From Gammaproteobacteria bacterium (GTDB lineage: Bacteria; Pseudomonadota; Gammaproteobacteria; Steroidobacterales; Rariloculaceae): a stretch of 64,000 nucleotides of DNA. The translations under genes were made by a program, and so were the position numbers. Positions 26,123-29,458 of the stretch are shown here, in pieces; position 1 is the stretch's first letter; the number at the start of each line of letters is the position of its first letter. The notes below the pieces were generated by a model, which saw only the letters and a list, made by a program, of their open reading frames with translations, was not told the DNA's origin and searched no databases. The DNA is taken from the NCBI GenBank assembly GCA_022819855.1, contig JAJEGN010000016.1, positions 1 through 64,000 on the forward strand. The letters run 5' to 3'.

Positions 26123-29100
26123 GTGCCGGAACACCACAGCAACTCACGCTTCACAAGTCCCGTCTTCTGGGCCGCGTTGAGCGCCGTCTCCGTCGGATGC
26201 GCAATATTCGCCTTCGCCAACTTCGATCGGGCGTTCTCGCTCGTCGATCTCGAGCTTCGCATGGATCGCGTCACCGCGCTGAGCGAGGCTCGGCGGCTTG
26301 CGGAAAGCTCCGATTGGGGACCGGAAGGGTATCGACAGGCGGCGAGTTTCCGTGTCGACGATCGTTCGCGCAGCTTCGTCGAACTGGAGGGCGGGGGTCG
26401 GGAGGCTTTCGCCGCGCTCATAAGCGAAGGTCCGTATTTCCCGTATCTCTGGATCGTGCGCCATTTCCGCGAAAACGACGCACGCGAACTCGAGGTCCGG
26501 TTCCTTCCGGACGGGACGCCCTACGGCTATCGCGAGCAACTTCCGGAAGACGCGCCGGGCGCCGCGCTTGACGCCGATGCGGCGCGGGCGATCGCCGAGG
26601 GTGGCGCAGGGGCGCCCTGGAACGTGGACCTTTCGCAGTACGAACTGGTCGAGTCGTCGCGCGAGGAACAGCCGAGCGGCCGCGTCGATCACACATTCGT
26701 CTATGAGCACGGCGACCGCCAGGCCGGCGAGGGTCGCTTCCGCCTGAGTCTCGTGGTCAGCGGGGACCGCGCGACCGCGCTCACGCATTACCTGCAGATA
26801 CCGGAGGGATTCGACCGCCGCTATGAGGAAATGCGCTCGGCCAACAACGGTATCGCGAGCGGGGCCACGCTTGGCATGGCGCTGCTCTATGGCGGCGGTG
26901 CGGTCGTGGGCCTGTTCGTGCTGCTCAGGCAACGCCGTGTGCTGTGGCGCATGGCGCTCGTCTTCGGGGTGGGCATCGCCGTGCTTCAGGCACTGGCCGG
27001 GTTCAACAGTTGGCCGCTGATCTGGATGAGCTACGACACTTCCGTATCGGAATCGAGCTTCGCGATTCAGCAGATCGTGGCGCTCATCGGTTCCACGGCG
27101 TTGCTGGCAGTCCTTTTCACACTGTCGTTCATGGCCGCCGAGAGCCTGTCCCGGCGGGCTTTTCCGCAGCACGTCCAGTTGTGGCAATGCTGGTCGCGCG
27201 ACGGTGCCCGCTCATGGCCGATCGTCGGCCAGACCGCGGCAGGTTACCTTGCCGTGGGCGCGATGCTTGCGTTTGTCGTGGCGTTCTACTGGTTCAGCAG
27301 TTCCGTGCTCGGCTGGTGGTCGCCGTCGGATACGCTCTACCAGCCGGATTCCGTGGCGACGGTGCTGCCTTGGTTCAACCCGCTCGCGATCTCGCTGCAG
27401 GCCGGGTTCTGGGAGGAGTGCCTTTTCCGGGCAGTTCCGCTGGCGGGCGCTGCGCTCATCGGCGAGCGTTACGGGCATCGCCGCGCGTGGATCGTTGCGG
27501 CCTTCGTCGTGCAGATACTCATCTTCGGCGCGGGGCACGCGAATTACCCGGCCCAGCCTGCCTATGCGCGGGTCGTCGAACTCATCCTGCCCTCGATCGT
27601 CTTCGGTCTGCTGTACCTGGTGTTCGGCCTGCTCCCGGCCATCGTCATGCACTTCGCCTTCGATGCGGTGCTGTTCTCGATGCCGCTGTTCCTCTCGACC
27701 GCGGCGGGGGCGTGGATCGATCAGGGCATCTTCGTGCTGCTGTTCCTCGTGCCCGTCTGGGCGGTGCTCGCGGCGCGCGTTCGCGGCGGCGCATGGATCG
27801 AGGCGCCGGCGCGCCTGTTCAACGCCGCATGGCAACCCGCGGAGCGCGCAGCGGCAACGGCGCCGTCACAAGGCGCACCCGTGACAGGGGTCGTATTGCC
27901 GGCGGTTCCGGTTTCGGCAGCCGTCGCGCTGGCGGGTCTCGCGCTGTGGGCGTTTGTGAGCGTGAAGCCCGTCGAGTCGCCGCCGCTTGGCATCGGCCGC
28001 GATCAGGCCTACGAAGTCGCCCGCGAAGCCCTGGCCGCCAGCGGCGCGAACGCGGCCGACTGGGAGGAATCGGCCATCTTTGCGGGCGGTATCGGGCCGC
28101 AACATCGTTTCGTGTGGAACGAAGCGGGACCGGAGGCGTTCCGCGCGGTACTGCGCCCGTATCTGTCGACCCTCTCCTGGCGCGTGCGCTACGCACGTTT
28201 TGAAGGCGACGTGGCGGCGCGCGCGGAAGAGTACGTCGTTTGGGTCAACGGCGACGCAGGCGTCGAGCGGTTCGAGCATCGCCTCGCCGAGAGCACGGCG
28301 GGCGCATCGCTCGAAGAGGCGGCCGCGCGCGAGTTGGCGCGGGAGGCGCTGGCGAGGCTGGATCCGATGCCCGAGCTGACGGAGGTCTCGGCGCGGTCGG
28401 AGCGCCTGCCCGCCCGCACCGACTGGAATTTCACTTTCCGCGACGAGGCGTTCGACGATCTTGCGGGCGGCGAGGCCCGCGTGGAGGTTCAGATCGCCGG
28501 AGACGAGGTTGTCGACACGCGCCGATTCCTCTTCATCCCCGAACAGTGGCAGCGCGACGATAATCAGCGGCGCAACTCCGTCGCCATCGCCGCCACGGCA
28601 TCGAACATCGTGCTCCTGGCCCTGCTGTTCGCAGGTGCGGTGGCGGGGGTGGTCGGTTTCGCTCGCGGACGCGCCAACCTGCGCGCGGCACTCGCGGTCG
28701 GCGGGCTGGTGCTCGCGTTGCAGGCGATCGGCGTGGCAAACAACCTGCCGGTGATATTGGGCAATCTGTCGACGGCCCAGCCGCTGTCGCTGCAACTGGG
28801 CGTGCTGCTCGCGTCCAGCGTCGTTGGCGCGGTCATATCCGCGAGCGTGCTGGGGCTGGTCGCGGGACATGTGCAGGGCCCGGTGGCGGGACCGCCGCCG
28901 CAGGACAGAACGGCTTCAATATCCGGCGGTCTGGCGCTTGGCTGCGGATTGCTCGGCGCGCTAGCCCTTGCGGGCTCGTTCCCGGCGACAACCCTGCCCG
29001 CGTGGCCGAACTTCACGGTCGCTTCGACTTTCCTTCCCTGGCTTGCGACGGCGCTCGCGCCAATTCAGCGCTTCATCGTGCTCACGCTCGCGGCCTTGCT

Positions 29101-29458
29101 GATCGTCAGGTCCGCCAACGCATTCACGGCGCACGGGGCGCGCCGCCGAATTCCGGCAGCGGCAGGCCTCTTCCTCGTTGGCCTGCTCCTGGCTCCCGGT
29201 CCCGTGCCGGTCGATGTCATGTCCTGGTGGCTCGTGGGAGCCGTCGCCGGAATCGTCCTGCTGGCAAGCTACTTCAGATTCCTGCGCGCGTATCCCTTGC
29301 TCGTGGTGCCGGCCGCCGCCGCGCTGTCGGCGCCGCCCGTTGTCGCGAGCGGGCTGCAGGGAGCGTACGACGGCGCGCTCGTAGGAGCGCTGCTTGCAAC
29401 TGCCGGCATCCTCGCGATTGCCTGGCGGTGGTTTGACGTTCGTCGCAATGTGGATTAG
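26123..29458 (+). CDS. Giant internally duplicated CPBP-family (Abi/Rce1-like) membrane protease
   Basis: 1111 residues from GTG 26123, which has AAGGAC upstream; the ORF track begins at TTG 26021. Normal CPBP proteases have about 200-300 residues. Here a membrane anchor and a soluble domain (about 30-225) precede membrane helices and the catalytic unit: WEECLFRA (Glu431, Glu432, Arg436), FGAGH (His472) and HFAFD (His510). From about residue 610 the layout repeats: a second soluble domain (610-805), IPEQWQRDDNQRRNSVAIA matching IPEGFDRRYEEMRSANNGIA, then similar helices. In the second half, the place of the EExxxR motif reads LAPIQRFIVLTL, so it has lost catalysis. Substrate unknown. Confidence 0.8.
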   Translation: MPEHHSNSRFTSPVFWAALSAVSVGCAIFAFANFDRAFSLVDLELRMDRVTALSEARRLAESSDWGPEGYRQAASFRVDDRSRSFVELEGGGREAFAALISEGPYFPYLWIVRHFRENDARELEVRFLPDGTPYGYREQLPEDAPGAALDADAARAIAEGGAGAPWNVDLSQYELVESSREEQPSGRVDHTFVYEHGDRQAGEGRFRLSLVVSGDRATALTHYLQIPEGFDRRYEEMRSANNGIASGATLGMALLYGGGAVVGLFVLLRQRRVLWRMALVFGVGIAVLQALAGFNSWPLIWMSYDTSVSESSFAIQQIVALIGSTALLAVLFTLSFMAAESLSRRAFPQHVQLWQCWSRDGARSWPIVGQTAAGYLAVGAMLAFVVAFYWFSSSVLGWWSPSDTLYQPDSVATVLPWFNPLAISLQAGFWEECLFRAVPLAGAALIGERYGHRRAWIVAAFVVQILIFGAGHANYPAQPAYARVVELILPSIVFGLLYLVFGLLPAIVMHFAFDAVLFSMPLFLSTAAGAWIDQGIFVLLFLVPVWAVLAARVRGGAWIEAPARLFNAAWQPAERAAATAPSQGAPVTGVVLPAVPVSAAVALAGLALWAFVSVKPVESPPLGIGRDQAYEVAREALAASGANAADWEESAIFAGGIGPQHRFVWNEAGPEAFRAVLRPYLSTLSWRVRYARFEGDVAARAEEYVVWVNGDAGVERFEHRLAESTAGASLEEAAARELAREALARLDPMPELTEVSARSERLPARTDWNFTFRDEAFDDLAGGEARVEVQIAGDEVVDTRRFLFIPEQWQRDDNQRRNSVAIAATASNIVLLALLFAGAVAGVVGFARGRANLRAALAVGGLVLALQAIGVANNLPVILGNLSTAQPLSLQLGVLLASSVVGAVISASVLGLVAGHVQGPVAGPPPQDRTASISGGLALGCGLLGALALAGSFPATTLPAWPNFTVASTFLPWLATALAPIQRFIVLTLAALLIVRSANAFTAHGARRRIPAAAGLFLVGLLLAPGPVPVDVMSWWLVGAVAGIVLLASYFRFLRAYPLLVVPAAAALSAPPVVASGLQGAYDGALVGALLATAGILAIAWRWFDVRRNVD

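Follow-up and report, generated by a model that had tools for sequence, protein, structure and literature searches.

Tandem arrangement of a predicted CPBP-type protease and a catalytically dead copy in a bacterial membrane protein

The gene and the layout of its product

The window, i.e. the whole 64,000-nucleotide stretch of DNA that was analysed, harbors on its forward strand a gene for a membrane protein of 1111 residues which consists of two homologous modules. The neighboring genes encode a TonB receptor, a lipase-like lipoprotein with Big_5, a D-Ala-D-Ala ligase and a peroxiredoxin; comparison of gene neighborhoods across phyla revealed no conserved partner, and these neighbors are not kept beyond the genus. 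GTG 26123 is a plausible but not certain start codon, since the frame stays open upstream as far as TTG 26021 and an ATG lies four codons further upstream in a congener; one congener has the same GTG with an ATG before it, and another starts at an upstream ATG. The features of the gene are as follows.

26123..29458, + strand: whole gene, tandem CPBP putative protease/pseudoprotease, 1111 aa, GTG start (open reading frame; homologues of equal length)
26159..26233, + strand: half 1, membrane helix 1, aa 13-37 (AlphaFold/DSSP; positive-inside loops)
26243..26803, + strand: half 1, predicted periplasmic domain of two PepSY/DUF4901-like repeats, aa 41-227, with RxDH at aa 187-190 (DSSP order; DUF4901/PepSY matches in relatives; Foldseek match to 5boi, 0.99)
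26804..27160, + strand: half 1, helices 2-4, aa 228-346 (DSSP)
27200..27787, + strand: half 1, putative CPBP catalytic core, aa 360-555 (PF02517 match at 27365-27670, 46 bits, above cut-off)
27413..27430, + strand: motif 1, EECLFR (EExxxR), aa 431-436 (40/40 first halves of clade 1)
27524..27538, + strand: motif 2, FGAGH (FxxxH), aa 468-472 (40/40 first halves of clade 1)
27650..27664, + strand: motif 3, HFAFD (HxxxD/N), aa 510-514 (H in 40/40; D in 38/40, N in 2/40)
27788..27904, + strand: predicted cytoplasmic linker joining the halves, aa 556-594, with invariant Asn567 (invariant columns; topology)
27905..27961, + strand: half 2, membrane helix 1, aa 595-613 (DSSP)
27971..28537, + strand: half 2, predicted periplasmic PepSY/DUF4901-like domain, aa 617-805, with RxDW at aa 765-768 (hhalign against half 1, E 8.3e-44; DUF4901 in relative L018)
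28541..28873, + strand: half 2, helices 2-4, aa 807-917 (hhalign against half 1, 98.8%, E 1.2e-16)
28907..29446, + strand: half 2, CPBP-like core, apparently catalytically dead, aa 929-1108 (catalytic residues in 0/40; same helix order; weak colinear profile match)

Each module is predicted to begin with a membrane anchor, followed by a PepSY/DUF4901-like domain in the periplasm and by about nine further CPBP (Rce1-like) membrane helices. The membrane helix is followed by two helix-plus-strand repeats, by a long helix starting at IPExxxR and by a matching series of helices. In the AlphaFold model of the whole protein (pLDDT 89.8, pTM 0.88) the order of helices and strands is identical in the two halves, and half 2 modeled alone (pLDDT 91.4, pTM 0.89) likewise displays the element order of half 1. 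In each half, charge counts over 43 homologues assign the short basic loops to the inner side and the acidic loops, like the soluble domains, to the outer side; both modules are thus predicted to be oriented alike, with periplasmic soluble domains, a cytoplasmic linker and the termini inside, in agreement with the two extracytoplasmic domains proposed in the preliminary description.

The soluble parts appear to share their repeats of a helix plus strands with DUF4901 (PF16244), PepSY and the YpeB C-terminal domain. PF16244 matches 11 of 43 relatives, at best with 29.3 bits (L018) against a cut-off of 27, and gives no hmmscan match for the window protein itself. The sole credible Foldseek match of the full model is the C-terminal domain of YpeB (5boi, probability 0.99). 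While PepSY/YpeB is a secreted or spore protein, the corresponding domains here are built into a putative membrane protease.

Homology of the two halves and loss of the catalytic site in the second

By BLASTP the two halves of the window protein align with 65.9 bits (E 1e-15) at 28% identity over 333 columns. Comparison by hhalign of half profiles built from 43 homologues yields E 1.3e-36 across 428 columns, and with broader profiles, extended by two subfamilies and the stand-alone modules described below, E 7.6e-58 across 508 of about 530-580 columns, thus almost end to end. The preliminary description had proposed two homologous halves with a common IPExxxR...N...A anchor, to be checked by self-comparison and by models: the self-alignment is significant, the anchor is found in both halves (IPEGFDRRYEEMRSANNGIA and IPEQWQRDDNQRRNSVAIA), and the models agree as described above.

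The degree of similarity varies along the chain. The soluble domains of the two halves align with E 8.3e-44 and helices 2-4 with a probability of 98.8% (E 1.2e-16), while the catalytic cores alone give a weak but colinear match (probability 74%, score 37; controls with shuffled columns scored 16 at most, the reversed profile 23). Judged from these profiles, the catalytic core of half 2 is far more diverged than the remainder of that half. Common descent with the CPBP core is indicated by the whole-half profile (E 7.6e-58) together with the same element order in the models, the match of the core alone being weak.

A direct search with PF02517 (Rce1-like) matches half 1 at 27365-27670 with 46.0 bits against a cut-off of 22.4 and does not match half 2. 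This is the only PF02517 match in the genome; other hosts of the family carry several. The residues Glu431, Glu432, Arg436, Phe468, His472, His510 and Asp514 are kept in all 40 first halves of the window's subfamily (Asp514 being replaced by Asn in two), and the equivalent positions in all 18 first halves of a second subfamily (with Phe replaced by Trp), whereas the catalytic site is absent from every second half (0 in 40 and 18). The confinement of EExxxR, FxxxH and HxxxD to the first half, noted beforehand in the single protein, thus extends to its relatives. By the features tested, half 1 is a member of the CPBP/type II CAAX protease family, in which EExxxR, FxxxH and HxxxD/N likewise lie in membrane helices (MmRce1, 4cad), and its protease activity is predicted; half 2 is, judged by its residues, catalytically dead.

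Other searches contributed little. Default hmmscan against Pfam leaves the CPBP domain of the window protein undetected, and annotation pipelines may therefore miss it as well. An NCBIfam scan (E up to 10, default filters), which included the myxosortase family, returned no family for the protein, and a search of PDB sequences with the family profile gave chance matches only. Foldseek returned no informative matches for the membrane parts of either model; Rce1 (4cad) was missing for the half 2 model and equally for the full model containing the live half, i.e. the positive control failed.

Related architectures, distribution and history

Modules of the same kind occur in two further contexts. 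Seven stand-alone modules of about 550-650 aa (L118, L119, L120, L121, L122, L128 and L182) all have intact catalytic residues and are likely descendants of an ancestral single form. In 23 proteins of about 780-960 aa (L124-L127, L164-L181 and L183) the module is followed by a C-terminal SpoIIE/RsbU-type phosphatase; examples are L126:2236-4692, L166:895-3384 and L183:470-2860, the other 20 being acidobacterial as well. PF07228 was found in all 14 fusions scanned (51-171 bits against a cut-off of 25) and is absent from the window protein; the remaining nine fusions carry the same GGD(Y/F)(Y/F)D-type sequence. The N-terminal module of these fusions is homologous to each tandem half, in L126 over nearly the whole length of its first ~560 residues (E 5.7e-60). 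In contrast to the tandem with its live half, the fusions always carry a dead module and have a cytoplasmic PP2C phosphatase as output: both the Glu-Glu pair and the motif 2 histidine are lost in 23/23, with one glutamate left in two and the histidine at position 510 in one. No input part other than this module is visible in any of the 23. At G698:C134 (L169) and G471:C77 (L176) two module-bearing genes or pieces adjoin, perhaps as local duplications of the phosphatase fusion.

In a tree from all columns, a branch separates the second halves and the phosphatase modules, all of them dead, from the live modules. A single loss of catalysis is possible; the three groups meet at one node, and in a tree from the soluble domain, with the core columns left out, their order is undecided (p-AU 0.78). 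In the two subfamilies, first halves and second halves group in clades that mirror each other, which argues that one tandem arrangement predates the split of the subfamilies; with the soluble-domain columns alone, support for these clades falls to 64-66%.

A scan of species genomes yielded 51 loci, distributed over Acidobacteriota, Gemmatimonadota, KSB1, Poribacteria, Marinimicrobia, Zixibacteria, Latescibacterota and, in a few cases, Proteobacteria. Of 297 genomes of Acidobacteriota sampled, 41 have a match. The tandem is retained, complete homologues being nearly all 1095-1139 aa long. The distribution, which the preliminary description had wanted compared, is that of a tandem fixed across many phyla at about 1100 aa. 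The earlier remark that the protein is far from the usual small enzyme holds for its size, CPBP proteins in the same genomes usually having 210-410 aa and neither two periplasmic domains nor a second, dead copy; the architecture, however, is that of an ancient conserved family and no speciality of this one genome.

When 58 relatives of the window genome were compared, the gene turned up in congeners alone and was missing from the other sampled members of the family and order; the nearest genes outside the genus are acidobacterial (58-61% identity) and cluster with the window gene at full support. The gene has thus probably entered this gammaproteobacterial genus horizontally from Acidobacteriota. 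Weak matches in two other Proteobacteria (17 and 14 bits) were attributed to chance, and a further candidate fusion, L123:3299-9367 (2023 aa), was set aside, its first ~900 residues resembling a chance frame in GC-rich DNA. Several tandem loci are irregular: L031:3389-6695 is shorter, its frame being broken near aa 155, which probably reflects a sequencing error or a pseudogene, while at G619:C1 (4214360 and 3564007) the gene lies in separate pieces 650 kb apart and at G527:C155 (L129) a stop between the halves splits it, each by assembly error or as a real split.

A candidate role for the dead half

Pseudoenzyme regulators are well known among kinases and rhomboids. The role of most prokaryotic CPBP proteases is not known (PMC11980579). 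For the present protein we favor, at slightly better than even confidence, a regulated intramembrane glutamic protease of the CPBP/Rce1 type with its receptor fused in cis. Half 2, the pseudoprotease, would bind or sense something in the envelope via its periplasmic domain and would pack against half 1 to form a pseudo-dimer, and its conformational state would open or close the active-site cavity of half 1, predicted from topology to face the periplasmic half of the membrane. A substrate anchored in the membrane or linked to a lipid could then be cut by the live half. Where a dead module of this kind is fused to a SpoIIE/RsbU-type phosphatase, as in the sister architecture, its signal would go to that cytoplasmic enzyme. 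As these fusions have the dead module as their only visible input part, the second half of the tandem is most likely a receptor or allosteric module that gates the live half. The predicted layout of the fusions, with a periplasmic domain on one side of the membrane and the phosphatase on the cytoplasmic side, is the usual one of a transmembrane receptor. An inhibitory or gating role would also fit a PepSY-type domain, SleB being regulated by the PepSY-containing YpeB (PMC6660665). Of the two roles considered at the outset for the dead half, sensor or substrate clamp, the fusions thus lean towards the sensor, short of proof.

The main rival to the receiver reading is that the dead half serves as a structural partner, either as the second member of an obligate pseudo-dimer or by presenting the substrate to its live counterpart. 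We consider this a serious but clearly less probable explanation. It has precedents in APH-1 of gamma-secretase and LnsB, dead CPBP relatives that act as partner or helper (PMC7387801, PMC6588880), and it agrees with the strict conservation of the tandem and with the multimerisation of YpeB PepSY domains (PMC6660665); yet live stand-alone modules occur without a dead partner, and dead modules on phosphatases without a live one. Like half 2, APH-1, LnsB and SpdC/LyrA have the CPBP fold minus the catalytic residues, but they are separate polypeptides without a PepSY-like domain, whereas the dead copy in the window is covalently joined to a live one. LnsB and SpdC/LyrA act without proteolysis (PMC7387801) and might suggest a non-protease enzyme or helper here too, for instance in lipoprotein or lipid tailoring; this seems improbable to us, because these proteins lost the catalytic residues that are kept in the first halves and stand-alone modules across phyla.

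Fainter still is the prospect of a sorting enzyme akin to myxosortase, which would trim envelope proteins at their C-terminal anchors and use the extra half for docking. Myxosortase is indeed a bacterial CPBP protease working on exported proteins (PMC11980579), and the active site of the window protein is likewise predicted to open outward. However, MrtX has 239 aa and lacks both the soluble domain and the tandem, and the NCBIfam scan matched no family, myxosortase included. A decaying, functionless second half is strongly disfavored and hardly credible: half 2 does evolve faster, at 1.5-1.65 times the rate of half 1, but all complete tandem homologues, which come from many phyla, retain the whole of it, with Phe693, Arg700, Glu702, Arg765, Asp767, Trp768 and Pro887 invariant. 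Such a modest excess in rate and the kept RxD[W/H] motif argue that half 2 is under selection.

Returning to the receptor in cis, we suggest more tentatively, at somewhat less than even confidence, that the PepSY-plus-CPBP pseudoprotease may constitute an undescribed class of bacterial membrane receptors, derived from a stand-alone intramembrane protease, which relays an envelope signal either through a live version of the module, with proteolysis as output, or through a PP2C phosphatase, with dephosphorylation as output. A search of open-licence papers found no published description of either the tandem or the phosphatase fusion; the architecture thus appears to be new, while the protease half belongs, by its sequence, to the known CPBP family. 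It is unusual for one chain to combine a live with a dead intramembrane protease and for this to be fixed across many phyla, and one CPBP subgroup thereby gains a specific functional hypothesis. With three architectures at hand (live alone, live plus dead, and dead plus phosphatase), the role of the dead protease is directly testable by module swaps.
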